Shown piece after piece: positions 21,093 to 45,215 of a stretch of DNA of 64,000 nucleotides. The notes beneath the pieces were generated by a model, which was given only the letters and a program-made list of their open reading frames with translations, did no database searches and was not told the DNA's origin. The stretch is from NCBI RefSeq assembly GCF_009687865.1, contig NZ_BLAE01000035.1, positions 215,727 to 279,726 of the forward strand, given 5' to 3'. The position numbers and the translations under genes are program-made. Source of the stretch: Acrocarpospora macrocephala (GTDB taxonomy: Bacteria; Actinomycetota; Actinomycetes; Streptosporangiales; Streptosporangiaceae). Numbering within the stretch: the first letter of the stretch is position 1; each line of letters starts with the position of its first letter.

Positions 21093-21986
21093 TTATCGGA
21101 CGCTGTAGCCCTGGGAGTTCCAGAACGAGGTCGGGTTCGGGTTCTCCAGGTGCGGGTCGCCGACGCTCTTGGCCGCACGCGTCTTCCGTCCGGGGCGCAT
21201 CTCGATGTGGGTGTGTGCGGATGACCTGCTCGACACCCCATGCCACGACTCGTCGGCGATGATCTGGCCGCGGCTGACCTGCTGGCCCACGCGCAAGGAC
21301 GACAGCGGAGCGGAGTGCAGGTAGATCACCGTCTTGTTCAACGCGGCGTTGTAGATGGCGATCGTGGAAAGTCCCGCCCTGCCGGTGGTCCCGCGCACCA
21401 GGTTGATGACCTGGCCTCCCACCAGGGCGTGCACATCCGCGCCCACACCGCGGGCGATGTCGATGCCTTCATGCCGGCCGGAGGTGGAGGTGTAACCGTC
21501 GAAGCCGCAGGTGATCGTGCCGCTGGCCGTGTACAGCGAGAACGACATGTTGCTGCGCGATGGTGATGACGACGGGCTGAACTTGTGCGAGGCGTTCTGG
21601 TTCTTGAGGGTGGAGTTCAGGTTGCCTTTGGCGCCTGGGGCGAAGTCCTGGTACGTGCCGGTGTGGCCGGTGTTGTAGTAGACGCGGACGGTCTTGCTGC
21701 TGCGGTTCCAGACGGAGGCGGCGGCGTTCTTGATGCATTTGCCCTTGCCGTTGCCGGGTCCCTTGAAGTCGTAGCAGGAGGGCTGTTTGGTGGCGTAGTC
21801 GGCGACTGATCCGGTGAAGTCGGAGACCGATCCTTGGTTGTTGCTGTTGAAGTAGTAGCAGAACTCGCCGGCCTGGCAGATGCCGTCGCGGTTCGCGGCC
21901 GAGGCGGGTGATGCGGTGGCGAGTACCGTCCCGCCGAGCGCCATCGCTGCGGTCGCCGCGGTGAGGATCCTGGTGAGCGTTCTCAT
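21093..21986 (-). CDS. Secreted I36-like module fused to M23 (LytM) endopeptidase
   Basis: 297 residues. Signal peptide (cleavage near residue 31), I36-like module at 34-135, then an M23 zinc peptidase: H172 and D176 in GRHEGIDIA, a YLHS strand, and the HxH pair H258/H260 in SSAHTHIEMR. All metal and catalytic residues of the family are visible, so it is probably active on peptide cross-links of peptidoglycan. It precedes the SpoIID fusion gene by 35 bp on the same strand. The shared N-terminal module may target both enzymes to the wall or keep them inhibited until processed. Confidence 0.87.
   Translation of the reverse strand: MRTLTRILTAATAAMALGGTVLATASPASAANRDGICQAGEFCYYFNSNNQGSVSDFTGSVADYATKQPSCYDFKGPGNGKGKCIKNAAASVWNRSSKTVRVYYNTGHTGTYQDFAPGAKGNLNSTLKNQNASHKFSPSSSPSRSNMSFSLYTASGTITCGFDGYTSTSGRHEGIDIARGVGADVHALVGGQVINLVRGTTGRAGLSTIAIYNAALNKTVIYLHSAPLSSLRVGQQVSRGQIIADESWHGVSSRSSAHTHIEMRPGRKTRAAKSVGDPHLENPNPTSFWNSQGYSVR
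21583..21952 (-). repeat. Copy B of duplicated I36-module coding DNA
   Basis: Partner of copy A. Two of the differences alter Ile/Val and Thr/Ala; most others are silent. The repeat ends sharply where the C-terminal enzyme domains begin (Ser-rich linker), marking a domain-shuffling boundary. Confidence 0.88.
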
Positions 21987-22052: not shown

Positions 22053-22898
22053 TCAGCGGCGCTGGTACTCCTCCCAGGTGCGGATAGTCACCTTCGGGCC
22101 GTCGTCCGGGCCACGGCCGGTGAGCCCGTTCAGGCCGAGGTAGTAGTCACCGATCTGGTGCTGGGCCTGGCTGGAGAGGCTGGTGTCGCTGATGGCGGCG
22201 GCGTGGATGTGCCACGGCCAGTCGCCTTGCCTGGGGCTACGCACCCATGCCGCGAAGCCGACACGGCGCAACGCGCGGACGGCCGCGGTGCGGGTGGCGG
22301 AATTCAGCCCCGTTACCGAGATGTCGACGACGCCGCCGCCGTCGTGGGTGCCCGCGGACGTGGGGTCGCCGCCGGGGTTGTACGAACCCTGATCCAGCTT
22401 GAGGTCGCGGCCGAGCAGCCGCTTCGCCTCGGCCAGCATGCTTCGCGTGCGGGTGTTGATGACGAAACCGCCGGTGGACACCCGGGTGCCCGGGTCGATG
22501 ACGTTGGTGACCGTGAAGCGGCCGGCTCCGAGCCTGGTGAGCGACGTCCTGCCCGGCAGGCCGTTGGCGTCGAGGCCAGTGAGGCCGAGCGACTTCTGGT
22601 ACTTCGCGTAGGCGGCGACCGTTGTGGTGCCGAAGTAGCCGTCCACCCACTTCGCGTCGAGGAGGCGCCGGTCGCGCAGCGCCCGCTCAACGAGGAGCAC
22701 GCTGGCCTTGGCACCCGGGGTCAGCGTGTCGTCAGGCCGCCGCGGGTCGATCTGGGCCGCCTTGACCGTGGCTTCCATGTTCACGCTCGGAAGGGCCCTA
22801 ACGTCGGCCGCCTGAGCCGCCGCCGTCCCGGACGCTCCGGTCAGCGAAGCGTGCAGGACGGCCGCCGTGAGGGCAGCGGCGTATGAGGGCAGCTTCAT
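22053..22898 (-). CDS. Secreted protein with peptidoglycan-binding domain and M15-like peptidase domain
   Basis: 281 residues. Signal peptide (cleavage about residue 31), a PG-binding-1 domain at about 62-124 (VDGYFGTTTVAAYAKYQKSL), then a domain with H185-x6-D192 (SAGTHDGGGVVDISV) and H230-x-H232 (WPWHIHAA), the zinc-ligand pattern of the M15/VanY-Hedgehog fold. It probably trims peptidoglycan peptides outside the cell. Third wall-active gene in a row (66 bp from the M23 gene), all on the minus strand. The M15 assignment rests on motif spacing only. Confidence 0.7.
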   Translation of the reverse strand: MKLPSYAAALTAAVLHASLTGASGTAAAQAADVRALPSVNMEATVKAAQIDPRRPDDTLTPGAKASVLLVERALRDRRLLDAKWVDGYFGTTTVAAYAKYQKSLGLTGLDANGLPGRTSLTRLGAGRFTVTNVIDPGTRVSTGGFVINTRTRSMLAEAKRLLGRDLKLDQGSYNPGGDPTSAGTHDGGGVVDISVTGLNSATRTAAVRALRRVGFAAWVRSPRQGDWPWHIHAAAISDTSLSSQAQHQIGDYYLGLNGLTGRGPDDGPKVTIRTWEEYQRR

Positions 22899-22992
22899 CG
22901 TTACTCCTGGATTCGGGCGCTGGGGGCGATTCCTGTGCGGCCGAATCCAACGTTTCGGATTGCTTGCGTGTCCTCAAGAAGATCGTGTTGTC

Positions 22993-23009
22993 AGCCTGTT
23001 CGACAGGCT
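22993..23009. terminator. Short hairpin after the NRPS operon
   Basis: AGCCTGT and ACAGGCT, 7-bp arms with a TCG loop, followed by TTTC on the plus strand. It lies 100 bp past the stop of the NRPS/MFS gene, between that operon and the start of the cell-wall enzyme genes. Small, so moderate support. Confidence 0.45.
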
Positions 23010-23111
23010 TTCCCGTACAGGCGTACGCGCCATCTGACAGGTGATCCGATGGCGAGTGCCCTCAACCGCGACCCCACAACGCATCGAGTAGGACGCGTAT
23101 ACGCGCGGAAC

Positions 23112-26100
23112 TCACCTGCTCGGCGTGGGCAGCAGCGCGTCCGCGGCCTGTTGCAGCTCATCCCGGTCCCAGGTGGCAACGGCTCCGGGGATCGCGTCCG
23201 GGAGAACGTCCTCCATGTAGCGCAGCGTGTGCCAGCGAAGCCCGACGAGCGCCAGCGCGACCTGGAGGCAGCCGAGGATAGCGATCATGACGGCCATGCC
23301 TCGGCCAGGGCCGGAGCCGAATGCGCCACCCACCGCCTCGCTCAGCCAACCGCCCTCGGCCATGGCGGGTTCGAAAACGGCGTCGGCCAGCCAGCCGGCG
23401 GCGAAGTAGCCGAGAGGCTCGGTCAGATTGGCGGTCATGCGGTTGGTGGCCAGGATCCGGCCCTGCAGTTCCAGGCCGACCTTAAGCTGGATCATGGTCT
23501 GCCAGTGGCCGTTGATCAGCGCGATGGAACACATGATCATGGCGAGGCCGACGACCGGAAAGGCGGCCATCGGCTGCGCTCCGGCGACGATCATTCCGAG
23601 ACCGGTGAGCAGGACGAAGCCGATCATGCCGGTGGCGCGCCGCTCGAATCCGCCCCACAGCGCCATCGCCACCCCTCCGGCGATCCCGCCCAGCGCGCCG
23701 ACCATCGTGGCCAGGCTCAGCGCCGTCGTGTCGGCAAACGAGAGCATCATCGGGGGTATCAGCGCGAACGTGAAGCCCAGCAGCAGGTTGTAGCCGAGGA
23801 AGAAGACCACCATGGCGACCAGGCTGCGACGCCGAGCCAGGTACCGCAGACCTCCGGCGATCTCTCTGAAGATCGACTCTTCGCGCCTGCGGAAGAGCAG
23901 TTCCGGGAAGCGTACGGCGAGCAGGGTCGCCATCGCGACGAGCGCCGTCGCCAGGTCGGTCAGCATGGCGCCGCCGAGGCCGGTGAGCACGATCAGCACG
24001 CCGCCCATCAGCGGGCCGACCGCCTGGCTCAGGGCCAGCACGACCTGCAGGATTCCGTTGGTCCGCGCCAGGTACTGCTTGGGGATCAGCTGCGCGACGG
24101 CGGCCAGGTACGCCGGCTGCTGGAAGGAGGTGGCGATGGAACCGATGGCGGCGGCGAGGTAAACGTGCCATAGCTGCAGTAATCCGGTCGCAAGCATCAG
24201 CAGGCAGAACGCGGTGCCGGCGGCGTTGGCCACCTCGACGGAGATCAGCAGCGATCGCCGGTTCCACTTGTCGGCCGCCGCGCCGGCCAGGGGCAGGACG
24301 AGCAGCCCGGGCAGCAGGGCGGTGGCGAGGATGGCCGAGAACTGGGTGGCGCTGCCCGTGTCCTGGTAGACCCAGATGCCCAGGGCGAACGCCAGCGCCC
24401 TGCTGCCGATCATGGAGACGAGCTGGCCGATCGTGACGAGGGCGAATCCCCACAGATTCGTGGTGGCACGTGGCCTGGAGCGCGGCCGGTCAGGCGGCGG
24501 GTTAGGGGTCGCGTGGAGTCGCCGGTTCACCCAGTCGGCGATGGTGGCGGCAAGCGGACCGGCCTGATGCTGGAGGAAGAAGTGCCCGGCGTCGGGCAGA
24601 ACGGCCAGTTCGGTGTCCGCGCACAGCAGGTTCCACTCGCGATGCCGCTCCTGGTGGAATTCGGTGATGCGGTCGCGTTCCCCGACCACGCTGAGCGCCC
24701 GTAACGTTCGGTCCCCTGGGGCATGGCACAGCCGCGAGTAAAGTTCCTCGGCTTCGCGTGCGTCGTGCCGCACTGCCTGGAGCGTCGCCGCCTGCTCGTA
24801 CGGATCCAGGGCGCCTTGGAGCCCGCCTATCCCACGCAGCACGTCACGATAGAGCCGGTCGGAGCGCCAGCGGTCGCTTGGCAGCAGCTTCGCCCACAGG
24901 TCGAACAACCGTCCGGGCAGGCGGGGCGCCGGGAAGGCCCCGCCGAGGACGACGCCGACGACCTGGCTGCCTTCGGCCTCCAGCCGCCTTGCTATCTCGT
25001 ACGCCAGCGCCGCGCCGACGCAGTGGCCGTAGACGACGATCGGACCGTCAATGGTCGCGCGGATCTCCCGGACGGCGCCTGCCGCGGTCGTCTCGAACGA
25101 TTCCAGCGGCTGGTCTGGCCGGGTGGGATCGTGGCCGGGCAGTTCGATGGCGTACAGGGGGAATTCCGGCGGCAGCGCCTTGGCCAGCTCGGCGTAGGCC
25201 GCGGCGGTTCCCCCGCCGAACGGCACCGCGACCACCGTCGCCGTGGCCTGGGCCGTCCGCTCTCCGCCGGGCAGCAGCCACAGATACTTCCCGGTGTCCG
25301 CCTGGCCGAGGAAGTCGGCCAACCGCCGGACGGTCGGATGCTGGAAGATCGAGATGACCCGTACGTCTGGGCCGATGCGGCGGGCCAGTCGCATGGCGGT
25401 GAAGGAGTCCCCGCCGGATTCGAAGAAGTCGTCGTCTATCCCGATCTGGTCGAGTCCGAGCACGTCACGCCAGATCTCGGCGATCCGCGCATCCCGGGTG
25501 TCGCGCGGGGGTGTCCGCTGCCCGTGCCGCAACGTCGGCGGGCCGGGTTCCGGCAGTGCGTTCCAGTCGAGTTTGCCGTTGGGCGTCAGCGGCAGCCGGT
25601 CGAGTTCGACGTAGGCGGTGGGGACCATATAGGGAGGCATCGCCGCTTGGGCGAACTCCACCAGTTCCGATAAATCGATGTCTTTATCGGAGACGTAATA
25701 GGCCGCCAGGGATGCCCGGCCGTTGTTGTCCTGCCGGGTGGCGACCGCGACCTCGGAGATGGCCGGATGGCGGCGGAGGACCGCTTCCACATGAGCGGGC
25801 TCGACCCGGTACCCGCGGATCTTCGTCTGGCGGTCCAGCCGACCGAGGAACTCGATCGAGCCGTCCGGATGCCGGCGGACCCGGTCACCGGAACGGTAGG
25901 CGCGCTCTCCGGAGAATGGATCGGTCACGAAACGGGTGGCGCCGGGTTCGTCCGGGTCGAGGTACCCGCGCGCCACGCTGCTCCCAGTGATCAGTAGCTC
26001 GCCCGCCGTGCCCTGGGGGACAGGGCGCAGCTGCTGGTCCACGACATCCGCCCGGACGTGCGGCAAGGGCGACCCCAGGGGAACGGAAACCCCTTGCCGT

Positions 26101-28454
26101 GAACCCGATTCGGCCGGGACCTGATAGGCCATCACGGAGACGGTCGTCTCGGTCGGCCCGTAATGATTCCAGATCGACACGTCCGGACGAGCGGACCGGA
26201 TGGCGTCGACCAGGTCCCACGGACAGGCTTCCCCCGCCAGCACCAGGAACCGCGCGGGCACCACGTCCGCCAGCAGGCCGGCTTCAGAGATGGCTTGCAG
26301 ATGGCTGGGCACCAGCTTCATGAAGTCGATGCGGTGCCGGCGGAAGTAGGCCGCGAATCGGTCCGGGTCGGCCGCCCATTCGTACGGCAACACATGGAGC
26401 GTGCCGCCGGTCGCCAGGGCGCCGAAGAGGTTGGTCAGCCCGAGGTCGGCGGCGAAGGTCGAGACGATCGCGAAATTCAGACCCTCGGGAATCCGCATCC
26501 GGTCCAGCAGGGCGGCCAGATAGCTGGCGAAATGCCGATGTTCGACGACCACGCCCTTCGGCTTGCCCGTCGATCCCGAGGTGAACAGGATGTACATCAC
26601 CTGGTCGGCGTCCACCTCCGGCGCTGGCTCGCCGCCGGGGCATCCGGTGAGATCCTCCAGCATCACCGTGGTCACCACGCCCTCAAGCGGCAGGGCCCGA
26701 TCCACCTGCGCATGGGTGAGCAGCAGCCCCGCGCCCGAAGCCCGCAGCACCGCCGCCAGGTGGTCGGCCGGCATCGACGAGTCGAGGGGGACGTAGCTCA
26801 GACTCGATTTCAGCGCGGCAAGTATCGCGACGACGTAGTCGATGGAACGCTCGAACGCCAAGGCGACCGGGCCTGCCTGGTCGCGCAGGTATCCGGCCAG
26901 CCGGTTCGCCCTATCGTTGATGTCCCCGTAGGTGATGACCTCGTCGCGGCACCGTACGGCGATCCGATCGGGATGCGCCTCCGCCTGGGCCTGGAAACGC
27001 GTGATCACGGGTATCTCGTCGTGGGCGGCGGGAACCGGCCCCGGCATCGGGTCGCTGGGCGGAACCGCGGGCAGGGTGGCCGCCGGGGCGTCGAGATCCG
27101 TGAGCAGGGCGTCCAGGACCGCGACGAAATGCTCGCCGAGTCTGGCCGCCAGGTCCTGACCGTACAGGTCCGTGGCGTAGTTGAGTGTTACCCGCATCGA
27201 GTGGCGCGCGTCGATGAATGTGCAGGTCAGATCGAACTTGGCGCGTGCCCTGAGGACGTCGAAAGGCTGGATGTCCAGCCCGGGCACCGGCTCGGTCAAC
27301 TCGGTGGCCGGGTAGTAGTTGACCATGACCTGGGCCAGCTTGCCGACGCTGAGATCACGTTCGGGGGCGAGTTCGGCCACCAGATGCTCGAACGGGAGTT
27401 CCTGGTGGTCGAGGTCTTCCAGGGTGCGCTGCCACACCTGCCGCACCAGGTCGCGCCTGCTCCCCGGACCGCCGAAGCCGAGCCGTAGCACGAGCGTGTT
27501 GACGAAGCAGCCGATCAGCTTCTCGGTCTCGAGGCGATCGCGCCCCGACACCGGTGTGGCGACCACGACGTCATCGGCGGCGCAGTGCCGGTGCAACACC
27601 TGGCCAAAGGCGGTGAGCAGCAGGGCGAACGGGGTCACCGAGGCGTCCCTGGCGACTGCGTGCAACCGGGAGCGTTTGCCCTCGTCGAGCTCGATGTGGA
27701 GTTCCGCGCCGCGGTCGGAGCGTACGGGGGGTCGCGGGCGCGCCAGCGGTAGTTCCAGAATCGGCGGCATACCGGACAGCCGTTGGCGCCAGTACGCCAG
27801 CTGGGCCGCTGCCTTCCCGGTGTCCAGGTGCGCCCGCTGCCAGGCGGCGTAGTCGGCGTACTGGATCGGCAGCGGGGGCAGATCGGAGCCGGTGTAGCCG
27901 CGGAAGACCTCCTCCAGCAGGAGGCGGCACGACCACGCGTCCGAGGCGATGTGGTGGACGACGAACAGCAGCGCGTGATCGTCGGGGCCCAGCCGCGCCA
28001 GCGTCACCCGCAGCGGCGTCTCGCGCTCCAGGTCGAAGGGCTGTTCCGCGAGGCGGGCGAACAGTTCGCCGGCCGCATCGGCAGACAGATCGACGTATTC
28101 GATGACCGGTGGCTCTTCGTCGACAACGAGCAGCGGCTCTTCACCGGCAAGGGAAGAGCACCTCGTCCGGAGCACCTCGTGCCGCGCGACCGTCGCGGCC
28201 ACGGCCGAGCGCAGGGCCTCGGTGTCCAGGTGGCCGCGCAGGCGTACGGCTTCGATGTTGTTGTACGTCGGGCTGTCCGGCCGGAGTTCCTGAAGGAAAT
28301 GGATCCGGTTCTGCGCGAACGACATCGGGAGCAGCCCGGATGAACGGTCGATCACGGGTATGGCGGCGGGTTTGGTCCGCATCATGCGGCCGAGCTGGGC
28401 TCGCTGCTCCGGCGACAGGCGCGCCAGACGTTCGGCCAGGGAGGACTCGGTCAT
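23112..28454 (-). CDS. NRPS (C-A-T-TE) fused to MFS exporter
   Basis: 1780 residues from ATG 28454 (ATGA overlap with the A-T gene). Domains: condensation 40-470 with HHIASDA (H167, H168, D172); adenylation about 490-960 (LFTSGSTGKPKG, NHYGPTETT, YRSGDRVRRH, PNGKLD); carrier with FESGGDSF (S1017); alpha/beta thioesterase about 1065-1280 with nucleophile elbow GHCVG, so Cys1145 replaces the usual Ser; then an MFS_3/EntS-type transporter of about 12 spans to residue 1750. It condenses the residue loaded by the A-T protein with its own, releases it and probably exports it. The A4 region (STFAADLGLTNLFGAL) lacks the standard FDxS Asp, so substrate prediction is unreliable. No MbtH gene is nearby. 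NRPS-MFS fusions are known in actinomycetes. Confidence 0.93.
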   Translation of the reverse strand: MTESSLAERLARLSPEQRAQLGRMMRTKPAAIPVIDRSSGLLPMSFAQNRIHFLQELRPDSPTYNNIEAVRLRGHLDTEALRSAVAATVARHEVLRTRCSSLAGEEPLLVVDEEPPVIEYVDLSADAAGELFARLAEQPFDLERETPLRVTLARLGPDDHALLFVVHHIASDAWSCRLLLEEVFRGYTGSDLPPLPIQYADYAAWQRAHLDTGKAAAQLAYWRQRLSGMPPILELPLARPRPPVRSDRGAELHIELDEGKRSRLHAVARDASVTPFALLLTAFGQVLHRHCAADDVVVATPVSGRDRLETEKLIGCFVNTLVLRLGFGGPGSRRDLVRQVWQRTLEDLDHQELPFEHLVAELAPERDLSVGKLAQVMVNYYPATELTEPVPGLDIQPFDVLRARAKFDLTCTFIDARHSMRVTLNYATDLYGQDLAARLGEHFVAVLDALLTDLDAPAATLPAVPPSDPMPGPVPAAHDEIPVITRFQAQAEAHPDRIAVRCRDEVITYGDINDRANRLAGYLRDQAGPVALAFERSIDYVVAILAALKSSLSYVPLDSSMPADHLAAVLRASGAGLLLTHAQVDRALPLEGVVTTVMLEDLTGCPGGEPAPEVDADQVMYILFTSGSTGKPKGVVVEHRHFASYLAALLDRMRIPEGLNFAIVSTFAADLGLTNLFGALATGGTLHVLPYEWAADPDRFAAYFRRHRIDFMKLVPSHLQAISEAGLLADVVPARFLVLAGEACPWDLVDAIRSARPDVSIWNHYGPTETTVSVMAYQVPAESGSRQGVSVPLGSPLPHVRADVVDQQLRPVPQGTAGELLITGSSVARGYLDPDEPGATRFVTDPFSGERAYRSGDRVRRHPDGSIEFLGRLDRQTKIRGYRVEPAHVEAVLRRHPAISEVAVATRQDNNGRASLAAYYVSDKDIDLSELVEFAQAAMPPYMVPTAYVELDRLPLTPNGKLDWNALPEPGPPTLRHGQRTPPRDTRDARIAEIWRDVLGLDQIGIDDDFFESGGDSFTAMRLARRIGPDVRVISIFQHPTVRRLADFLGQADTGKYLWLLPGGERTAQATATVVAVPFGGGTAAAYAELAKALPPEFPLYAIELPGHDPTRPDQPLESFETTAAGAVREIRATIDGPIVVYGHCVGAALAYEIARRLEAEGSQVVGVVLGGAFPAPRLPGRLFDLWAKLLPSDRWRSDRLYRDVLRGIGGLQGALDPYEQAATLQAVRHDAREAEELYSRLCHAPGDRTLRALSVVGERDRITEFHQERHREWNLLCADTELAVLPDAGHFFLQHQAGPLAATIADWVNRRLHATPNPPPDRPRSRPRATTNLWGFALVTIGQLVSMIGSRALAFALGIWVYQDTGSATQFSAILATALLPGLLVLPLAGAAADKWNRRSLLISVEVANAAGTAFCLLMLATGLLQLWHVYLAAAIGSIATSFQQPAYLAAVAQLIPKQYLARTNGILQVVLALSQAVGPLMGGVLIVLTGLGGAMLTDLATALVAMATLLAVRFPELLFRRREESIFREIAGGLRYLARRRSLVAMVVFFLGYNLLLGFTFALIPPMMLSFADTTALSLATMVGALGGIAGGVAMALWGGFERRATGMIGFVLLTGLGMIVAGAQPMAAFPVVGLAMIMCSIALINGHWQTMIQLKVGLELQGRILATNRMTANLTEPLGYFAAGWLADAVFEPAMAEGGWLSEAVGGAFGSGPGRGMAVMIAILGCLQVALALVGLRWHTLRYMEDVLPDAIPGAVATWDRDELQQAADALLPTPSR

Positions 28455-30244
28455 GACGTCTCTTCGCGCTGGAGGTCGCCGTCGCTTACCTCGCCCAGAG
28501 CGTCGAGTAACGCGTCCAGGTCGGTGGGACCGTCCGCGAGGAGCCGGCGTTCCATGATCGTTATCCCGATGCCGGCGACGGTGGCGGCGGCGAACAGGTC
28601 GCGCTGCGACAGCCGTACATCGAACTCCTGCCAGATCCTGGACGTCAGCTGGGTAGCCATGATCGAGTCGCCGCCCAGAACGAAGAGGTCGTCGGCCGCG
28701 GATACCCTCTCGACACCGAGCAACTCGGCGAACCGGTCGGCCACCCAGCATTCGATGTCGCCATGCGGTGCGATGTATTCGGGTTCGTCCCGGGCGGCGA
28801 GTTCGGTCAGCGCGGCTCGGTCGATCTTTCCGGTTCGGGTACGGGGCAGTTCCGCGACCTCGACGAAACGGGCGGGGATCATCGCAGCGGGAAGCGCGCT
28901 CGTCAGGTCGCGCCGCAGATCCGCGACGGTGAAGCCGGCCGTGGGCACGACATAGGCGGTGAGGCGGGCTTCCTCCCGTGCTCCGCCCGCCCGGGTCGCG
29001 GTCACGAACGCGTCGCGGACCGACGGGTGGGCGCGGACGGCGCGGACGACCTCGGCGGGGTGGACCCGTACGCCGTTGATCTTGACCTCGTCGTCGGCGC
29101 GGCCCAGGACGACCAGGTCGCCGTGCTCGTCCACGTGGCCCAGGTCACCGGTCCGGTAGGCGATGACCCCATCGCCGAGGGCGGCGAAACGTGCCGCGTT
29201 CTCTTCGGGCATGTTCAGGTAGCCGTGGCTGCACGAGCGGCTGACCAGCACGATCTCGCCGGAGGGCACCGGCTGGGTCAGGCGTGCGCGCACCAGGTCG
29301 GCGTCCAGCACGGCGTCGGGTTCGATGAAGCAGTAGCTGGTCCCGGGCACCGGCCGGCCCGCCGGGAAGGTGGCGGGCTCAGCCGGGATGCGCTTGTAGA
29401 CGGTGGCCTGCCCGCTCTCGGTGGAGCCGTAGGAGTTCACCCGGAGCGTCGTGTTCGGGAAAAGCGTGGGCCATCCGCTCAGCACGTCGGCGGCCGGAGG
29501 CTCGCCCACGAAGAACACCGCGTGTACGGCGGGGCATGTCACCCTGCCGTGATGCAGCCAAGCCCGGGCTACCGACGGCACGGCCGTGATCACGCTGATC
29601 CGCCGCCGGGCGAGCCACGACACCGTGGCTTCCGGTTCCTCCGTCGCGCCGGGCTCGGGTATCACCACGGTCGCGCCCGCGACCAGCGGGGGGAACATGT
29701 CCCGCAGGCTGGCCTCGAAACTCAGTCCGGTGAGGAAGGCGAAGCGGTCGCGGGGCCCGATACCGAACTCCGGGCCGAACCACTCGGCGAAGGACAACAC
29801 CGACGCCGCCGAGCCGAGCACCGGTTTGGGGGTGCCGGTGGAACCAGAGGTGAAGTAAACGAAGGCCCCATCACCGGGAACCTGCCGGCGCGGGTGGTTG
29901 TCGAGGCGGACCATGCCGGTGTCGGTCAGGAGAAACTCCGGGCGTACCATATCGAGGAAGATCGCCCGTCGATCTGTGGGGGTGTCGGGGTCGATCGGGA
30001 GCACCGTGCCGCCCGTGGCGAGAACCGCCAGAAAATCAAGCAAGAATTCTGCGGATTTCGCACGTTCCATCGCGACGAATGTGTCGCGTACGCCACGGGC
30101 TTCCAGCTCGGCGGCCCGATCGTCTATGTATTTGCCCAGCTCCCGATAAGTGATGGAGCCGCCGGCGTGCTCGATGGCGATGTCCGGTTCCAGCTCGTCC
30201 GCGTGGGAGCGAATCACCTGAACGAGACGCTGCTTGGTATTCAT
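28451..30244 (-). CDS. NRPS loading module (A-T)
   Basis: 597 residues. Adenylation core: YFTSGSTGTPKP (130-141), A4 region LSFEASLRDMFPPL (174-187), SYGSTESGQ (271-279), YRTGDLGHVD, KINGVRVHP, and the catalytic Lys of RTGKID (473). Carrier domain with LGGDS (S527). No condensation domain, so it loads the first monomer and passes it to the C domain of the next protein. The A4 motif has Glu where amino-acid-activating domains have Asp235, and RDMF-PL-GA resembles Lys2-like adenylating domains. GAGG ribosome site 5 bases ahead; 16 bp after the Lon-WD40 gene, so the same transcript is likely. Confidence 0.92.
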   Translation of the reverse strand: MNTKQRLVQVIRSHADELEPDIAIEHAGGSITYRELGKYIDDRAAELEARGVRDTFVAMERAKSAEFLLDFLAVLATGGTVLPIDPDTPTDRRAIFLDMVRPEFLLTDTGMVRLDNHPRRQVPGDGAFVYFTSGSTGTPKPVLGSAASVLSFAEWFGPEFGIGPRDRFAFLTGLSFEASLRDMFPPLVAGATVVIPEPGATEEPEATVSWLARRRISVITAVPSVARAWLHHGRVTCPAVHAVFFVGEPPAADVLSGWPTLFPNTTLRVNSYGSTESGQATVYKRIPAEPATFPAGRPVPGTSYCFIEPDAVLDADLVRARLTQPVPSGEIVLVSRSCSHGYLNMPEENAARFAALGDGVIAYRTGDLGHVDEHGDLVVLGRADDEVKINGVRVHPAEVVRAVRAHPSVRDAFVTATRAGGAREEARLTAYVVPTAGFTVADLRRDLTSALPAAMIPARFVEVAELPRTRTGKIDRAALTELAARDEPEYIAPHGDIECWVADRFAELLGVERVSAADDLFVLGGDSIMATQLTSRIWQEFDVRLSQRDLFAAATVAGIGITIMERRLLADGPTDLDALLDALGEVSDGDLQREETS

Positions 30245-30260
30245 TAGGTGACCTCACAAA

Positions 30261-33200
30261 TTAGGGGCAGATCTTCCGGAACGGTTCTGTCGGTATGTAG
30301 CGCTGCCATTCTTCGAGAGTCAGAGACCGTCCCGCGATTTCACAGATCAGCGAGGAGGGGTCGGCGGGCAGGGTCATCGCCCACAGGCGGGCGGAATCCC
30401 GGCCCGCGCTGGCGACGGTCTTGCCGTCAGGACTGAAGGCGACCGCCTTGACACCGCCGGGATGCGGTCGCGGGTCACCGAGCCGGCGGCGCGTGGCCAT
30501 ATCCCACAGCTGGAGGGTGCCGTTGCTGCTCGCCGTGACCAGGTAGCCACCGTCCGGGCCGAACGCCACATCCCAGACGGCGTCGCCGTTGTCGAGAGGG
30601 TCGCCGATGGCGCGGCAGCCGCGCACGTCCCACAGCCGAACGGTGTCCTCCAAGCCACCGGCCGTGGCCAGAATGCGGCCATCCGGGCTGAACGCCAGGT
30701 CCGCGACGCTGCTGGTGTGGCCGCGCAGCGGAGGGCAGACCTCCTGGCGGGTGGTCACGTCCCACAGGCGGACCGTCTTGTCGGAGTTGGCGGTGGCGAG
30801 GATCTTCCCGGCCGGGCTGAACGCCGCACCCAGGACGCCGCCGTCCTGCAGCGCTGGCCCGATCGGCTCGCCACCGGGCACCGTCCAGAGGCGTACGGGA
30901 CCGAGTCCCGCGGTGGCCACCATCGCCGCGTCCGGGCTGAAGGACACCGTGCCGATGACGCCGATCAGGCCTTCCCTGGCGGGGCCGATAGGGTTGCCGG
31001 TGGCGACATCCCACAGGCGGGCGCTGACGTTCCGGTCGCTCGCGACCGCGAGGATCTTGCCGTCCGGGCTGAAGGCCACGCCGCCGACCTCGCCGGTGTG
31101 GGCGAGCGGAGCGCGCGTGGCCGCTCCCCACAGGCGGGCGGTGGTGCCTCCCCCGGTGGCTATCGTCCTGCCGTCCGGGCTGAACGCCGCGTCGCTGATC
31201 CGCTCGTGGCGCAGTTCGCCGGTTGGGCGGTGGGCCGCGACGGTCCACAGGCGGGCGGTCGTGTCGCCGGCGGTGGCCACCGTCGTGCCGTCCGGGCTGA
31301 AGGCCACCGCGTCGATGAGGTCGGTGTGGCCCGTCAGCGGAGTGCCGATGGATTGCCGGGTCTCGACGTCCCAGAACCGGGCGGTTCCGTCGAAGCTTCC
31401 GGTGAGCAGGGTCGTGCCGTCCGGGCTGAAGGCTACGGAGGACACGCTGCCCGGATGGGTGAGGGGTTCGCCGATGGGGCGCTGAGCCGGCACGTCCCAG
31501 AGCCGGGCGGTGCTGTCGAAGGCCGTGGTGGCCAGGGTCTTGCCGTCGGGGCTGAACGCCACGGCCCTGACCTCATTGGTGTGACCTTCGAGGGGTGGGC
31601 CCGCCGGTCGGCGGGTGTCCACGTGCCAGAGGCGGGCGGTGTTGTCGAAGCCGCCCGTGGCCAGGGTCTCCCCGTCCGGGCTGAAGGCCAGTGCGAAGAC
31701 CGCGCCGACGTGGCGGCCGGGCAGGGGCTCGGCATGCGGGTCACCCGTCAGGTTCCACAATCTGGTGATGCCGTCGCCGTTGCCTGTGGCCAGGGTCGTG
31801 CCGTCCGGGCTGAAGGCCACCGCGTAGACGTCGTCCTTGTGGACGAAGGGCTGGCCGATGGGGCGCTGCGTGGCCACGTCCCAGAGGCGGGCGGCGTTGT
31901 CCCGACCGGCCGTGGCCAGGGTCTTGCCATCCGGGCTGAAGGCGACCGCGTACACGTCGTTGTCGTGGGCGAGTGGTCGGCCGAGGGGGCGTCGGGTGGC
32001 CGTGTCCCATAGTCGTACGGTGCCGTCGTCGGAGGCCGTGGCGAGGATCGCGCCGTCCGAGCTGTACGCCACCGCCCGCACGCGGTCTTCGTGTCCGGAC
32101 AGTACGGCCCGGACCGAAGTGGCGACAACGGCTTTCATGCCGTAACCCGCTTCGGGAGTCGCGTGGAATTTCCAGGCGGCGAGGGAAAGCAGGCCGGAAA
32201 GAACGGGGTCGGCGGTGCGGACTTCGTCACTGCGCAGGGTCGTCAGCCGGGACAGGGCTTCTTTGCGCCGGGCCTCTATCGTCTGCTGCTTCTCCCGCGA
32301 GTCCTTGATCCAGAGCGTGCCGACGGCGATCAGCGCCACGGCGAGGGGAACGGCGATCCAGCCGGCGAACGGCCAGATGTTGGGGCGGCGTGCCTGTCTG
32401 GCGGCGATGTGCCAGTTCGGTGCCGGAACGATGACGACGTCCTGTCCGGCTGCCTCGGCTTCCTGCTGGTCCGGGGTGGGCACGATGACGCGGGCGTTCT
32501 TGCCGGCGGCCTGGAGTTTGCGTTCGTAGCCGCCGACCGACCGCATGTTACCCAAGTCGTCGATCTTGCCGACCACGGCGTTGGCGCTCACCAGCCGCCA
32601 GATGGGCGGGGGCAGGTAGAACGGCCGTCGCAGGCTCCGCAGTTCGTCGAGCAGTACGGCGAACGCGGCGCCCAGGGATTCGCCTTCGACTTCGCCGAGC
32701 GGCCCTTCCGTGCGTTCGAGCGACCACAGGACCGTACCGGTGATCTTCTCACCTGCCTGGGACCACGCGCGGCCGAGGGCGATTTGGAACCTCTCGTCGG
32801 CGATGAACAAGGACATGCGCCGGGGGTCGGGTACCAGCCCTCGGGGCGAGTCGCGGACCAGAGTGGCCTTCAGCTGGGCGTGCCATCCCTGGTCGGCAAG
32901 GTCGAGCAGCACGCGTGGGCCGGTCAGGCGGCGGCCCTCGGGTGGACGGCCGGCCAGGGTGCGCAGGGTGACGGCGATGGCCGGGGCGGCGCCGGCCAGG
33001 CGGCGATCGTCACCGGCCAGCGCCGTGAGGATCTCCAGCTGCCGGGTGTCGTCGTGCCCCGTCCATTGATCTGACAATGGTGAACCGTGCGCCGCCGCGT
33101 GCCAGAGGAGGGCCTTTCGCAGGTATTCCTCGGCGCGTTCTTCCTCGACCAGGCTGAGCGCGAGTCCCGCCAGGCTGCGCAGCGCGTGCACCGTCGGCTT

Positions 33201-33476
33201 GTCCGATGCCTGGAATGGCGGGCCCAGTTCTTCGACTATCCGCCTGTCCACCAAACCGTGGTATCCGAGTGGCTCGTTGAGCGCGGCGTGCAGGCGGGTT
33301 TCCCCATGGTGGAGGCGCTGAAGGGAAGCGGTGTCGCGGTCCGCCACCAGGCGGGCGAGCAGACCGGGCAGCGGCTGCTCCGGGCCGAGGAACTCGTCGC
33401 AGAGCAGGCGTTCGTCGCGGTCGGGCCGGCCGTCGCCGAGGATGTCGTCGAGGGAGTCAGCCTGATTCAGGCTCAC
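30261..33476 (-). CDS. Lon-type protease domain - transmembrane - 14 WD40 repeats
   Basis: 1071 residues. Residues 1-220: helical, unassigned. Residues 245-345 match the Lon (S16) proteolytic domain: Ser267 in VEGESLG aligns with the catalytic Ser of EGDSAS/DGPSAG, and Lys320 in VGGYERKLQAAGKNARVIVP with the catalytic Lys of GGLKEKLLAA...VLIP. No AAA+ ATPase is attached. One membrane span at 370-390 separates it from 14 WD40 repeats (410-1035, repeated FSPDGKTLATAG...ARLWD), enough for two seven-bladed propellers. The tail (SLTLEEWQRYIP...ICP) is the one found on actinomycete STAND-WD40 proteins. GTG start overlaps the upstream stop. Likely a regulated membrane protease or conflict-system effector; targets unknown. 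Confidence 0.85.
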   Translation of the reverse strand: MSLNQADSLDDILGDGRPDRDERLLCDEFLGPEQPLPGLLARLVADRDTASLQRLHHGETRLHAALNEPLGYHGLVDRRIVEELGPPFQASDKPTVHALRSLAGLALSLVEEERAEEYLRKALLWHAAAHGSPLSDQWTGHDDTRQLEILTALAGDDRRLAGAAPAIAVTLRTLAGRPPEGRRLTGPRVLLDLADQGWHAQLKATLVRDSPRGLVPDPRRMSLFIADERFQIALGRAWSQAGEKITGTVLWSLERTEGPLGEVEGESLGAAFAVLLDELRSLRRPFYLPPPIWRLVSANAVVGKIDDLGNMRSVGGYERKLQAAGKNARVIVPTPDQQEAEAAGQDVVIVPAPNWHIAARQARRPNIWPFAGWIAVPLAVALIAVGTLWIKDSREKQQTIEARRKEALSRLTTLRSDEVRTADPVLSGLLSLAAWKFHATPEAGYGMKAVVATSVRAVLSGHEDRVRAVAYSSDGAILATASDDGTVRLWDTATRRPLGRPLAHDNDVYAVAFSPDGKTLATAGRDNAARLWDVATQRPIGQPFVHKDDVYAVAFSPDGTTLATGNGDGITRLWNLTGDPHAEPLPGRHVGAVFALAFSPDGETLATGGFDNTARLWHVDTRRPAGPPLEGHTNEVRAVAFSPDGKTLATTAFDSTARLWDVPAQRPIGEPLTHPGSVSSVAFSPDGTTLLTGSFDGTARFWDVETRQSIGTPLTGHTDLIDAVAFSPDGTTVATAGDTTARLWTVAAHRPTGELRHERISDAAFSPDGRTIATGGGTTARLWGAATRAPLAHTGEVGGVAFSPDGKILAVASDRNVSARLWDVATGNPIGPAREGLIGVIGTVSFSPDAAMVATAGLGPVRLWTVPGGEPIGPALQDGGVLGAAFSPAGKILATANSDKTVRLWDVTTRQEVCPPLRGHTSSVADLAFSPDGRILATAGGLEDTVRLWDVRGCRAIGDPLDNGDAVWDVAFGPDGGYLVTASSNGTLQLWDMATRRRLGDPRPHPGGVKAVAFSPDGKTVASAGRDSARLWAMTLPADPSSLICEIAGRSLTLEEWQRYIPTEPFRKICP

Positions 33477-34765
33477 CGTGTCTCCCCGGTCAGCGCGGCC
33501 AGCAGCCCGTGCAGCGGATGATCGGCGGGGAGGCGCGCGGCGAGTTCCCGCCAGGGACGGAGCGCTCTGTTCGTCCTGACCGTACGCACCGAGCTCCGGA
33601 GATCGTCTGCGTGCAAGAACTTCACCTCGGCCAGGCCGATCGGCGGATCGTCGAACGTGACCTCGAACTCTCCGGAAGGCATGGGGAGGCTCGCGAATCC
33701 CACCAGGCCATCAGACGTGACCTGTAGAGGGATGAAGTACGAAAAATCACCATCGGTTCCCCGTACGTCGACGGGCAGCACCATCACGTGATAGGTGCGG
33801 GACACGGTGGCGGCCAGGTCCGGTGTCAGCGTCGCCGCCACGTCGATCTCAAGGCGCCCGGTGTCCGTGACATGGAGATCGATCGTGAAGGGGTCGCGAT
33901 GCAGTTGTTCGGAATGGCGCCTTATGCGCCGGTCCGTCGCGGCCGCCGGGCGGAGCGTCGAGGTCAGGCGCACCAGGTGCCCGTTTCGGGCGCCTGCGTG
34001 GTCATCGCCCGTCAGGTGCTGGGATGCGAGCCGGGCGCTGTATGCGAGGAATGGGTCACCCGAAGCGAGCACATCCATGAGCCGGGAGAGGCCGAGCCGC
34101 GCTACCCGCGGCACGCGCGAAATCTCCAGGCGTGGCAACCGGGCGCACAGCGCGGTGGCGCCCAGCCGAGCCACCGTGGCGTCGGCGGCGCGCTGACCGG
34201 CGGCGAGTTGTTCCAGCGCCGCGGTGAAACGTGATCCCGCCGGGGTGAACCAGTGCCGCAACCAGATGGGCGTTCCCGGGGTGGTGCCCTGGAGAGCGGC
34301 GATCACCTCCTCGGCCAGCCGGGAGACCAGGTCCCACGGGAGCACGTGGAACAGTTCCGCCGGCGGGTCGCCCTCTTCGGCGAGACGCCGTACCAGCAAG
34401 TGACGTAGGGGGATGCGCTCGTTGCCGAGCGCCTCCAGTTCGGCGGCGTCAAGGACTGCTTCGGGCCACTGGGCCTCGATCCTGTCGATGATCGCCAGCC
34501 CTGCCTCGGAGACCTCGATCGGCTGGGCCATCTCGTCGAGTTCGACCACGATCCGGCCACTCTCCTGATGGACCAGCCCGAGGACGCCGGGACTGATGTC
34601 GAGGGTCACGCGCCGTCGCAGCCAGCCGGCTCCGAATTCCGGCAGTAGCCGGGCGTCGGCCCGGTCGTCGCCGTCGTTCACATCGGCCGAGGGATCCCAC
34701 CGGGCGGTCCCGGTTTCCGGCCGGTGGACGGCGATGGTCCAATTACTCAGAGGTTTATGCGGCAT
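33473..34765 (-). CDS. Unknown protein of the NTase / Lon-WD40 operon
   Basis: 430 residues from ATG 34765 (longer starts would run through the NTase gene). I do not recognise a family. The N-terminal 100 residues are beta-rich (GWLRRRVTLDISPGVLGLV, GRIVVELDEMAQPIEV), the middle (100-290) helical, and the C-terminal 120 residues again beta-rich (TYHVMVLPVDVRG, YFIPLQVTSDGLVGFASLP), ending in a short helix (DHPLHGLLAAL). No signal peptide or membrane span. It overlaps the NTase gene by 11 bp and the Lon-WD40 gene by 3 bp, so the three are made together; it may bridge them, for instance as an adaptor or substrate. Confidence 0.75.
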   Translation of the reverse strand: MPHKPLSNWTIAVHRPETGTARWDPSADVNDGDDRADARLLPEFGAGWLRRRVTLDISPGVLGLVHQESGRIVVELDEMAQPIEVSEAGLAIIDRIEAQWPEAVLDAAELEALGNERIPLRHLLVRRLAEEGDPPAELFHVLPWDLVSRLAEEVIAALQGTTPGTPIWLRHWFTPAGSRFTAALEQLAAGQRAADATVARLGATALCARLPRLEISRVPRVARLGLSRLMDVLASGDPFLAYSARLASQHLTGDDHAGARNGHLVRLTSTLRPAAATDRRIRRHSEQLHRDPFTIDLHVTDTGRLEIDVAATLTPDLAATVSRTYHVMVLPVDVRGTDGDFSYFIPLQVTSDGLVGFASLPMPSGEFEVTFDDPPIGLAEVKFLHADDLRSSVRTVRTNRALRPWRELAARLPADHPLHGLLAALTGETR

Positions 34766-35861
34766 TGTGTGGTCCGTCCGACAGTTTCCGGAGGAGAGCC
34801 GCTGCGACCGGGCCCAGGTCCGCGGCCAGTTCGATTGCCCGGCGGCGGTGTTTCTTGGCCACACCGTTGTGCCAGACGGCGGTCAGCAGCTTCCATTTGC
34901 CGGTCGGGATCCGTTCGTTGAGGTCCGCCGGGAGCGAGCCGGCCCAGTTCGCCAGCGCGGAGGCGTCGGCGTCGGGCCAGCGGATCAGGAACTTCAGGCC
35001 GCGCAGCACGATGCTCGCCTGCTCCACTGGGTTGTCGCCCTGGTAAGCGATGACCAGCCTGCTGGGAGCGTGCCGCAGGTGCTCGATGCCGTGCCCCGAC
35101 GGGTCGATGATCAGCTGCCGCCGGAGGTCGTAGTAGAGGGAGTTGACGGTGAAATCGCGACCAGCGGTGTCCTCGGTCAGGTCCCCGCCGGAGGAGAGGA
35201 ACCGGAATCCGCCGAGCGTCAGCGCCTTGTATTCCACAATACGTTTTCCCGCCGCGAGCGGCTTTATGTAGACGACGCCCCGCATTGAGACACCCCGCTC
35301 ATAGTCGCCGGACCCGGCGCGCGCCAGCGATTCATGGGCGAGGTCGTAGAATTCGCCGGTCGGTATCGTCCCGCAGAAGTCCAGATCCTTTATCGGGTGC
35401 TCGGGCTCGGTGAGCAGATCGCGTACCGCACCGCCGACGAGCCAGATCGTGTGGTGCCGATCGTCGATTTCGCTGAGCATTAACGGAAGCAGCGCTTCGA
35501 CTTCTGAACGGGAGATGGCCCGGTCGACCGCGCTGGGCAGATAGGGTGCGATATCGTCGGCCGAGCTCAGATATTCTTGTTTCAGACCGGCTACCGGATG
35601 TAATCCGCATCGGTCGATCCGAATGCCGTTCGCCACGTCCCGAGGGGAAGGTATCGGCCGCGCCGGGGGTTCGTCGCGATTCTCATCCCCTTCGAGCAGG
35701 AGTCGATCGCCGTCGGCGCCGGGTGTGCTCGGTTCGTACGCGAAACCGAGGACCAATTCGCCGTCCACGAGGTCGCCTCTGACCAGAGGGCCATTCGCAG
35801 GACGCTCGTACGACGTACGGAGATCATCGGGCCTGGATAGCCCCACAGGCGACACCACCAT
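34755..35861 (-). CDS. Class II nucleotidyltransferase, poly(A) polymerase/CCA-adding head-domain family
   Basis: 368 residues. Residues 137-245 carry the class II NTase core: LVGGAVRDLL (141-150), the metal-binding DxD in KDLDF (D159, D161), and RDFTVNSLYYD (235-245) with the third acid region. The C-terminal 120 residues are helical but lack an HD domain and the full tRNA-binding body, and about 120 residues of unassigned sequence precede the core. It is therefore not a normal CCA-adding enzyme (about 480 residues). First gene of the five-gene run ending in the NRPS; its acceptor could be RNA, a protein or a small molecule. Start at ATG 35861 has no strong ribosome site. Confidence 0.82.
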   Translation of the reverse strand: MVVSPVGLSRPDDLRTSYERPANGPLVRGDLVDGELVLGFAYEPSTPGADGDRLLLEGDENRDEPPARPIPSPRDVANGIRIDRCGLHPVAGLKQEYLSSADDIAPYLPSAVDRAISRSEVEALLPLMLSEIDDRHHTIWLVGGAVRDLLTEPEHPIKDLDFCGTIPTGEFYDLAHESLARAGSGDYERGVSMRGVVYIKPLAAGKRIVEYKALTLGGFRFLSSGGDLTEDTAGRDFTVNSLYYDLRRQLIIDPSGHGIEHLRHAPSRLVIAYQGDNPVEQASIVLRGLKFLIRWPDADASALANWAGSLPADLNERIPTGKWKLLTAVWHNGVAKKHRRRAIELAADLGPVAAALLRKLSDGPHNAA

Positions 35862-36056
35862 CGAAAATCCACCAATCGACCATCAGATCCAATGGATGAC
35901 ATACACGCATATTTCGACGCAGCGGTGCTTCTTTGAGCGCCTGTCCCCTATCGTCGGATAAGCGGCAAACGGCTGGTCCGAGCACTCGGCCCACTCCGGA
36001 TGTCTAGCTAAGCAGCCCTATGTCGCTGTTGTGGCGCAAGTTACCAAGGGTGCGAG

Positions 36057-36956
36057 ATGTCCAACGATGCAAAAGCGGCCGGGCTGCTCCTTCGCCGCAT
36101 GCTCACCGAGCGTGCGGAGTACCGGGCGAAGTGGCAGTACCAGCAGAAACGGAGATCATCATCGGATATGAACCGGACTGCCGTCGCGGAAGTGATCACA
36201 CAGTATCTGTGGGCTGAGGGCGAGCGTCATGAGTCCAAGACGGCTCGCCACATGAAGGACCGCGTGGGCCGTGCGCTCGCGGGCCAGGTGATGAGCCCGG
36301 AGACGCTGGAGTGGTTCATCACGGCATTCGAAATGCCTACCGAAGATCAGCGAATGTTGGAGGAGGCATATCTGCACGGAATGCTCCCGACCGACCTGCC
36401 GCCCGCCGATACCCTGCAGAAACGGCAATCGCTCCCTCGCCCCCAACGGCACCGCACGATGATGGCCTTCGAGCGCCGGACCATCGACGTCACCGGACGG
36501 GCCGCATCCCACCACTCCCTCCGCACCATCATCGCCTGCGAGGACGGAGTGGATCGCTATCCCTGTTTTCTCTCCCCCCGCATGGCCGGCATTCGCGTCA
36601 TCCATGGCGGTCGTGTCGTCACCCCTTACCGCCCACCCGTCATCGAGATCGCACTCGCCCGGTCGCTGCGGGAAGGCGAGACGACGTCATTGGAGTACCG
36701 GCGCGATTTCGAGCAGATCGGTGGCGTCGACACCGAGTACCGCCGCGTCGCCAACGGACGCGCGCAGAACCTGGGAATCGTCGTCCAGTTCCACCCGCAC
36801 CGCTTGCCGAGCAAGGTCTGGTGGGCCACCTGGGATGCCCACCGTGGCGGCAACGTGGTGGAGGAGCAGCCGGTATCCCTCGACGCTGACCATCGGGCCC
36901 ATCGATTCCTGCCCTACATGAAGAACGCCGCCGCCGGTTTCCATTGGGTCTGGTGA
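36057..36956 (+). CDS. Hypothetical protein with HTH-like N-terminus, divergent from the NTase operon
   Basis: 299 residues. The first 120 residues are helical and basic and read like a degenerate XRE-type domain (TAVAEVITQYLWAEGERHES, SPETLEWFITAFEMP). Residues 150-299 are beta-rich (AFERRTIDVTGRAASHH, FLSPRMAGIRVIHGGRV, LGIVVQFHPHRLPSKVWWAT) with a Trp-rich end. I cannot name the family, though proteins of this shape are frequent in actinomycetes next to stress or antibiotic genes. It is divergent from the NTase/Lon-WD40/NRPS operon with 195 bp between, so it could regulate it. Confidence 0.65.
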   Translation: MSNDAKAAGLLLRRMLTERAEYRAKWQYQQKRRSSSDMNRTAVAEVITQYLWAEGERHESKTARHMKDRVGRALAGQVMSPETLEWFITAFEMPTEDQRMLEEAYLHGMLPTDLPPADTLQKRQSLPRPQRHRTMMAFERRTIDVTGRAASHHSLRTIIACEDGVDRYPCFLSPRMAGIRVIHGGRVVTPYRPPVIEIALARSLREGETTSLEYRRDFEQIGGVDTEYRRVANGRAQNLGIVVQFHPHRLPSKVWWATWDAHRGGNVVEEQPVSLDADHRAHRFLPYMKNAAAGFHWVW

Positions 36957-40878: not shown

Positions 40879-42066
40879 TCAGACGACTCTTTCGGCTCGC
40901 AGTTCGGCGATCTCCGACTCGGTCAGGTGGAGTGTCCGAAGTTCGGCGTCGGTGTCGGCGCCAAGGCGGGGAATCCGGAGTTCTGCTGGCCGGCGTGGGC
41001 CTAGGCCCAGCACATTGCCGATCGCGTGGAAGTCACCGAGTTCGGGGTGCGAGGTGGTGTACAGGATGTCGCGAGCCTGAATCTGCGGGTCTGCCATGGC
41101 GCCGCTCATGGTGTTCACCGGCGCTGCGGCGATCTGTTCGCGCAGGAGGTCGGCGATCCATTCGTCGCGGTTGCGCGTGCGGAACGCCTCCCGGATCGCC
41201 TGGTCCTGATCGGCCGGCGGGAGATCCGCGTCGGCAAGATCCGGACGTCCCAGGACGGCGCACAGGGAGCGCCAGAACTTGTCCTCGGAGGCGGCCACTG
41301 CGATCCATCCGCCGTCGGCGCTCTGGTAGAAGGAATATCCCGGGGCCGGGCCGAGGAACCGGGATAGGCCTCGCGGCTGGAGGTCGGTGCTGCGGGCCGG
41401 CTCGATGCCCCCACCCCAGTAGTCGGCAAAGGCCTGGATCATCCACGAGACGGCACCGTCGAGCATGGAGATCTCGATCGCGCGCCCCTTCCCGCTGGCG
41501 CTGCGCGCGATGATCGCGGCGAGGATCGCGACGACCGCTCGCTGGCCGGACTCGAGGTCTGCGATGGGTAGCGGGATGAGGCGGGGCTGGTCGCCCATCA
41601 GGGATGCGGCTCCGGTTACGGCGAGGTAGTTGTGGTCGTGACCCGGGAGGTTCGCGTAGGGGCCGGTGGAGCCGTACCCGTTGATCGCGCAGTAGATGAG
41701 GTGCGGGTGGCGCGCAAGCAGGCGGTCGGCTCCGAGGCCGAGCCGAGCCATGACGCCGGGGCGGAAGCTCTCGAGTAGCACGTCCGCGCCCGCGCACAGT
41801 TGATCCAGCAGGTCGACGCCGCGTGCCGTCTTGAGGTTGAGTGTCATCGAGCGCTTGCCGTGGTTGAGGAGTGCGAACAGATAGCCGACATCCGTGTTGT
41901 TGATCCGTGGACCCGACTCGCGGAGGTAGTCACCGCGAGTGGGCTCTTCGATCTTGAGGGCATCGGCGCCAAGATCGACGAGTAGCCGAGAGGCGTAGGG
42001 GCCCGGCATGAGCCGAGACAGGTCCAGCACCTTGATCCCGGCCAGCGGCGCGTCGTCAGTGGTCAT
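40879..42066 (-). CDS. Class III CoA-transferase (CaiB/BaiF)
   Basis: 395 residues from ATG 42066 (the frame extends upstream without protein character). Family III signature: IKVLDLSRLMPGPYASRLLV, GADALKIEEP, LNLKTARGVDLLDQLCAGAD, ESFRPGVMARLGLG and NGYGSTGPYANLPGHDHNYL with the catalytic Asp in the latter (GHD). These enzymes move CoA between carboxylic acids. It is divergent from the PotABCD-like importer (218 bp) and is one of three paralogues in this island, so it probably activates the imported acid or an intermediate. Confidence 0.93.
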   Translation of the reverse strand: MTTDDAPLAGIKVLDLSRLMPGPYASRLLVDLGADALKIEEPTRGDYLRESGPRINNTDVGYLFALLNHGKRSMTLNLKTARGVDLLDQLCAGADVLLESFRPGVMARLGLGADRLLARHPHLIYCAINGYGSTGPYANLPGHDHNYLAVTGAASLMGDQPRLIPLPIADLESGQRAVVAILAAIIARSASGKGRAIEISMLDGAVSWMIQAFADYWGGGIEPARSTDLQPRGLSRFLGPAPGYSFYQSADGGWIAVAASEDKFWRSLCAVLGRPDLADADLPPADQDQAIREAFRTRNRDEWIADLLREQIAAAPVNTMSGAMADPQIQARDILYTTSHPELGDFHAIGNVLGLGPRRPAELRIPRLGADTDAELRTLHLTESEIAELRAERVV

Positions 42067-42135
42067 GTCACTACCTTCTCGTGTCGGTGATCGTCGGCCA
42101 CGTACCGGGTCAACCCAGGTCGGGCAACCCCTACC

Positions 42136-42204: not shown

Positions 42205-42284
42205 AACCCGTAAACATTCAGGCGGGATGGTCTCGGTAACGAAGTCGGCGGCCCGAGGGCCCAGGTGGAGAGGCATCAGAGGCA

Positions 42285-45165: not shown

Positions 45166-45215
45166 CGGACGCTGAACCGCGGCAGAAAACCTGAAACCCA
45201 CCAGAAAGGACTGCA

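Follow-up and report, generated by a model that had tools for sequence, protein, structure and literature searches.

The stretch of DNA analysed here (the window; 64,000 nucleotides of contig NZ_BLAE01000035.1 from the 12.1 Mb genome of Acrocarpospora macrocephala) contains five abutting minus-strand open reading frames (ORFs), all with high-GC coding signatures, that encode, in order, a nucleotidyltransferase (NT), a protein designated U, a Lon-like, transmembrane, WD40 protein (W), and two nonribosomal peptide synthetase (NRPS) proteins with A-T and C-A-T-TE-MFS architectures (Table 1). The coordinates and strand that a first-pass annotation had assigned to these ORFs were confirmed, as were three of the gene joints it had described, i.e., an 11-bp overlap between NT and U (34755–34765), a 16-bp gap between W and the A-T gene (30245–30260), and a 4-bp overlap between the two NRPS genes (28451–28454); the overlap between U and W, previously given as 3 bp, measured 4 bp (33473–33476). 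A divergent gene (X), located outside the coordinates covered by that annotation, flanks the start of the run. The 16-bp gap includes a GAGGT resembling a Shine-Dalgarno (SD) sequence ahead of the A-T start codon (ATG), and a crude scan, weakly informative for high-GC actinomycetes, found no terminator-like site in this gap; co-transcription of W and the A-T gene is thus physically possible, and the sequence is compatible with possible read-through from W into the A-T gene in this one strain. A crude consensus scan, also weakly informative for high-GC actinomycetes, found no sigma-70-like sites in positions 22800–36300 (shuffled sequences gave a mean of 1.2).

Table 1. Features of the module locus and of the adjoining NRPS genes, in coordinates of the window.
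Feature	Position	Strand	Remarks
X	36057..36956	+	299 aa, divergent from NT; N-terminal helix-turn-helix-like region (by eye), conserved C-terminal domain
X–NT intergenic region	35862..36056	.	presumed divergent promoter, from gene layout
NT, nucleotidyltransferase	34755..35861	-	368 aa
U, unknown family	33473..34765	-	430 aa
W, putative Lon-like protease / transmembrane / WD40	30261..33476	-	1071 aa
Lon-like protease domain of W	32388..32936	-	residues ~181-363; putative Ser267 + Lys320 dyad
Transmembrane helix of W, predicted	32313..32369	-	residues 370-388; hydropathy scan
WD40 repeat region of W	30372..32108	-	residues ~457-1035
NRPS A-T protein	28451..30244	-	neighbour, outside conserved module
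NRPS C-A-T-TE-MFS protein	23112..28454	-	start at 28454; neighbour, outside conserved module

We used U as the tracer for relatives of this locus and found it in nine of the 297 genomes searched in the order and, by profile search, in 6 of 297 genomes of the family (both counts include the window's own genome); a scan of genome contigs returned six loci, three of which were already known, and a plasmid search returned one record. After removal of the duplicates L062, L063, and L066, 13 distinct relatives were available for comparison (L010, L011, L012, L013, L014, L015, L016 with its additional contig L101, L017, L056, L064, L065, L067, and the plasmid copy L100), each represented by 19.9–25.3 kb with several kb of flank on both sides (7.2 kb for L101), and neighbouring genes were scored by profile searches of the six-frame ORFs of these loci. 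NT adjoins U in 12 of the 13 relatives, the exception being L017, in which U matches only partly, and W was found by profile in 11 of the 13. A divergent protein stands in for W at L015 and L016/L101 and, as judged by eye, presents a GG[PG]SAGGAM Lon-type motif and WD40 repeats; tandem Lon-like/WD40 genes precede an S_4TM gene at both loci (L015:2384–8757 and L101:1368–7159), the first with the Ser motif and the second degenerate-looking (by eye). The gene order of the plasmid copy is W, a gene for a propeller-like protein, NT, U, and a SLATT gene. For the 11 loci in which NT, U, and W were all found by profile (the window and 10 relatives), the three protein distance matrices agree (r = 0.95, 0.87, and 0.91; Mantel p = 1e-4), as expected of genes inherited together. 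Acrocarpospora pleiomorpha (G311), a member of the same genus as the source of the window, carries the module (loci L056 and L062), and all relatives found in the searches made belong to actinomycetes. This linkage bears out the first-pass proposal that the first three genes form a coherent, non-NRPS module of the type seen in conflict systems, and we are highly confident both in the reality of the NT-U-W module and in the standing of the NRPS pair as its neighbour.

The domains found by Pfam and NCBIfam in the NRPS pair are those previously described (A-T and C-A-T-TE-MFS), but the proposal that the module is tied to the synthesis of an NRPS peptide did not hold. A tblastn search with both proteins found a homologue of the pair in the flanks of none of the 13 relatives, so that the upstream genes were largely found to travel without NRPS genes; the sole NRPS match in the relatives was a 26% match in the A-domain region of an L067 gene, on the strand opposite to W and approx. 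4 kb beyond it. Among the five genomes of the genus (the window's included), the best A-T match in the other four, which include A. pleiomorpha, showed only 39% identity. Close A-T homologues (E 1e-95) were found in two other genomes among 249 genomes of the order, G064 (A-T, 70% identity; C-A-T-TE, 63%; MFS part, 74%) and G188 (48–51%, 58%, and 67%, respectively), with the parts in the same order in both, and scans of stretches around these NRPS pairs detected none of NT, U, W, and X (L097 and L099 by profile; L098 by blastp against the window proteins). Because the linkage fails in both directions, with no such pair in the module flanks of any of the 13 relatives and no module beside the pair, in the stretches scanned, in two genomes, an NRPS-coupled operon was rejected as a functional unit. 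A tight NRPS junction that is not conserved serves as a warning against inferring function from gene joints. Both A domains (window 23112–30244) seem, by eye, to lack the Asp that holds the amino group, at the position that we take to correspond by GrsA numbering, which suggests unusual substrates.

NT has a single Pfam match, the PolyA_pol head domain (PF01743; E = 4.6e-11), and the solved chains most similar to it are those of E. coli poly(A) polymerase and of CCA-adding enzymes (PDB 3aqm, 1miv, and others; best E = 6e-10); by these sequence matches, NT is classed as a class II CCA/poly(A)-polymerase-type nucleotidyltransferase. The DLD and RD..xN catalytic motifs are kept in all 13 NT copies, and GGxxRDL is found in 12 of 13 (L067 reads RGL). 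Motif D of CCA/poly(A) polymerases, EDxxR, which acts in base selection, is found in 0 of 13 copies. NT also has a conserved N-terminal extension of its own, while only approx. 70 residues follow the neck and Pfam detects only the head; from this length and these profiles, the RNA-binding body and tail were judged to be missing. NT thus shares the head domain and the catalytic DxD with bacterial poly(A) polymerases and class II CCA-adding enzymes, and differs from them in the loss of motif D, in leaving no room for body and tail, and in its extension. NT did not match the CD-NTase (SMODS) cyclase of CBASS, as Pfam returned PolyA_pol only and PADLOC returned nothing. We propose only tentatively, as a guess made for structural reasons, that NT makes a signal nucleotide, and we consider this less probable than its opposite.

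U matched nothing in Pfam, NCBIfam, or PADLOC and gave no reliable match in a sequence search of the PDB. Its AlphaFold model (pLDDT 86, pTM 0.84) predicts an N-terminal beta part, a helical bundle, beta strands, and C-terminal helices, and a Foldseek search with this model found no PDB or viral-model fold at E 0.001 (best PDB E = 1.8e-3, TM-score < 0.2). Membership of U in a known family was rejected, as sequence searches of Pfam, NCBIfam, PADLOC, and the PDB and fold searches of PDB and viral models all returned nothing reliable, and the predicted fold is possibly new. A viral origin was also considered and rejected; a scan of viral contigs matched 12 stretches to a pattern, with 0 relatives.

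The first-pass description of the third gene as Lon-like, membrane-spanning, and WD40-containing was supported at each part. Pfam recognised 13 WD40 stretches in W. An AlphaFold model of residues 1–363 (pLDDT 85) gave 136 Foldseek matches at E 0.001; Lon proteases accounted for every one of the best 50 (lowest E = 2.7e-8), and among these the TM-scores against isolated Lon proteolytic domains were 0.63–0.73. A sequence profile of W also placed Lon chains at the top (E = 3e-4), with unrelated chains among the weaker matches; Pfam assigned no Lon or other family to residues 1–363, and the NCBIfam model spore_lonB reached only E = 0.07. The Lon-motif Lys aligns with Lys320, and Ser267 and Lys320, which we take to be the Lon catalytic Ser-Lys dyad, have equivalents in every one of the 12 profile-detected W copies. 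A hydrophobic helix begins 56–66 residues past the start of the Lys motif in 11 of these copies (the L012 helix falls below threshold), and the W proteins of L014, L067, and L100 present extra weak hydrophobic segments. Model and sequence together indicate that W is a putative membrane Lon-like protease. It differs from housekeeping LonA and LonB in that no AAA+ domain was found among the best 25 of 66 Pfam families matched by W, nor in residues 1–363.

From the transmembrane helix to the C-terminus (profile positions ~363–1080), W matches two nSTAND1-WD40 proteins (PF20703) of the same genome (E = 1.7e-133 and 4.6e-165); W thus looks like a Lon-like domain mounted on a common transmembrane-WD40 chassis, and it differs from the nSTAND1-WD40 proteins in carrying a helical and a Lon-like domain where their STAND ATPase sits. 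A search with the whole of W (33 of 246 genomes) was dropped as a count of the module because its matches come chiefly through this shared stretch, nearly all of them beginning at profile position 310 at the least. The N-terminal profile of W (E 1e-5) found 2 of 346 genomes of the phylum, i.e., the window's own genome and G635, in which the match is short (E = 2.8e-6; positions 306–363 only).

A homologue of X lies beside the module, on the strand opposite to NT, in 7 of the 13 relatives (the L065 copy is approx. 1.6 kb away), and X is likely to be a regulator of the module; the window copy has no Pfam match. X as a gene confined to the module was rejected, since full-length homologues without NT, U, or W were found at seven loci (L047–L053). 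These loci come from other families, and cysteine-synthase-like neighbours were seen (by eye) in four of the five loci read.

Four of the 13 relatives encode a predicted pore-forming protein within the module run. Pfam identified it as S_4TM in L015 (E = 2e-76) and, for the L016 genome, on contig L101 (E = 5e-77), and NCBIfam identified it as SLATT_4 in L067 (E = 9e-27) and in L100 (E = 9e-28); in L067, one gene separates W from SLATT. We took a census of both families in the 14 genomes or records from which the window and the 13 relatives derive, the plasmid record being without its chromosome. S_4TM was found in 2 of the 14, with one copy each; one of these copies lies at the module, and the other, on a short contig with the remaining Lon-WD40 genes, probably adjoins it. 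SLATT_4 was found in 6 of the 14, and in G775, as on plasmid record W01, the sole copy found belongs to the module. The one SLATT_4 gene of the window's genome (G000:C103:26885–27319) is on a contig other than that of the module.

Several other neighbours were observed. A lipoprotein-like, propeller-like protein is encoded between W and SLATT in L067 (14664–16622) and between W and NT in L100 (9199–10821), in two host genera. In L010, a gene for a cutinase-CARDB protein (13522–15111) begins 31 bp past W. Downstream of the A. pleiomorpha module (L056:1268–5133), a small gene of the CU044_2847 family and a gene for a 1194-aa protein form a conflict-type pair; the 1194-aa protein has weak NACHT/EruA-type and serine-protease matches. 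The window also encodes a protein fusing a peptidase-inhibitor I36 domain with an M23 peptidase domain (21093–21986), as well as three CoA-transferase family III genes and an ABC transporter set (40879–55084).

We favour, with some reservation, a reading in which NT-U-W, often with X, is one inherited module, probably of defence or conflict, behind which the NRPS pair is an independent cassette in this genome; we give a conflict or defence role for NT-U-W slightly better than even odds. The best reading is an undescribed, patchily spread module that would join nucleotide transfer to membrane-tethered proteolysis, a function that we infer; no description of a system of NTase, U, and Lon-WD40 was recognised in the portions of the open-licence PMC literature consulted. 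X would control the divergent promoter. One helix would anchor W in the membrane, and on opposite sides of it would lie the Lon-type Ser-Lys protease and the WD40 propeller, a possible sensor or scaffold (the domains follow from model and sequence, and the topology is predicted). NT would be a catalytically intact nucleotidyltransferase released from tRNA work that, with U, may make a nucleotide product or nucleotidylate a partner. By analogy with other systems, this product or modification would switch the protease of W, together with the SLATT or S_4TM pore where one is present, and the infected cell would be stopped.

The CRISPR-Lon and SLATT-system analogies support a defence reading without proving it. 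Type III CRISPR systems have been described as using Lon domains as effectors gated by a signal, and CRISPR-Lon, with its Lon-SAVED and CARF-Lon forms, resembles the module in combining within one system a Lon protease domain and a maker of nucleotide signals (PMC9704534, in the part consulted). In contrast to these proteins, W shows no CARF or SAVED match among the best 25 of 66 Pfam families and has a transmembrane helix and a WD40 propeller, and NT is of CCA/poly(A)-polymerase type rather than Cas10. DRT9 and DRT10, according to the parts of the sources consulted (PMC12483538, PMC12632851; PMC7159879), also resemble the module, which in 4 of 13 relatives sets a nucleotide-polymerising enzyme beside a SLATT or S_4TM pore. 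The module differs from them in that it has a class II NTase in place of their reverse transcriptase, in that U and Lon-WD40 are its constant parts, and in that nine relatives and the window have no pore effector. A further comparison is with Hailong, a system mentioned in PMC12657218. Its nucleotidyltransferase reportedly makes a DNA product that gates a membrane protein; to our knowledge, Hailong includes neither Lon-WD40 nor U, which sets it apart from the module.

Several observations weigh against the favoured reading. PADLOC returned nothing for NT or U, and W was matched by one model only, in the repeat region. The runs of 9 of the 13 relatives and of the window contain neither SLATT nor S_4TM, and off-module SLATT_4 genes are present in the window's genome, G311, G239, and G029 (the last below the cut-off). 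Species descent alone could also produce the Mantel agreement. Finally, the plasmid module (L100) lies less than 1 kb downstream of PrnB-family, ketosynthase, and carrier-protein genes, and a metabolic role is possible because this copy adjoins genes of secondary metabolism.

Among the alternatives, developmental or envelope signalling, in which a transmembrane-WD40 protease would sense an envelope or differentiation cue and cleave a regulator with no invader involved, is unlikely, yet it fits the architecture of W, the confinement of the relatives found to actinomycetes, and the secreted cutinase gene next after W in L010. A core developmental role is disfavoured because the distribution is rare and patchy, U being present in nine of the 297 genomes at order level and the N-terminal profile of W matching 2 of 346 at phylum level; a plasmid copy exists as well, and 4 of 13 relatives have pore-effector neighbours. 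Less probable still is RNA repair and quality control, in which NT would re-add 3′ nucleotides to tRNAs damaged, e.g., by nuclease attack, and W would clear damaged proteins; the kinship of NT to poly(A) polymerase and CCA-adding enzymes (E = 6e-10) and its kept catalytic motifs are consistent with this role, whereas the absence of EDxxR from all 13 copies, the missing body and tail, and the failure to see an AAA+ unfoldase in W within the Pfam scope given above argue against it. The least probable alternative, one five-gene operon in which NTase and WD40 membrane protease control the synthesis of a small NRPS peptide, can draw on the 16-bp joint, in which an SD-like GAGGT was found and a terminator-like site was not, on a variable slot after W that holds effector-like genes in some relatives, and on the secondary-metabolism genes near L100, but it founders on the absence of the pair from the flanks of all 13 relatives, on A. 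pleiomorpha, which has the module and a best A-T match of 39%, and on the G064 and G188 pairs without the module in the stretches scanned.

Beyond the favoured reading of NT-U-W as an inherited, probably defensive module, a bolder version, which we consider rather unlikely, would make it a new class of nucleotide-signalling immunity of actinomycetes, in which an NT shorn of its tRNA-reading parts would act with U to produce an unseen nucleotide that gates W and sometimes a pore, the NRPS cassette having been captured here in the effector slot behind the module promoter. If the proposed immune role is right, CCA/poly(A)-polymerase-type enzymes would join CD-NTases and Cas10 as template-independent makers of nucleotides in immune signalling, and such a nucleotide maker would be linked to a membrane Lon-like protease and to U, possibly a new fold.

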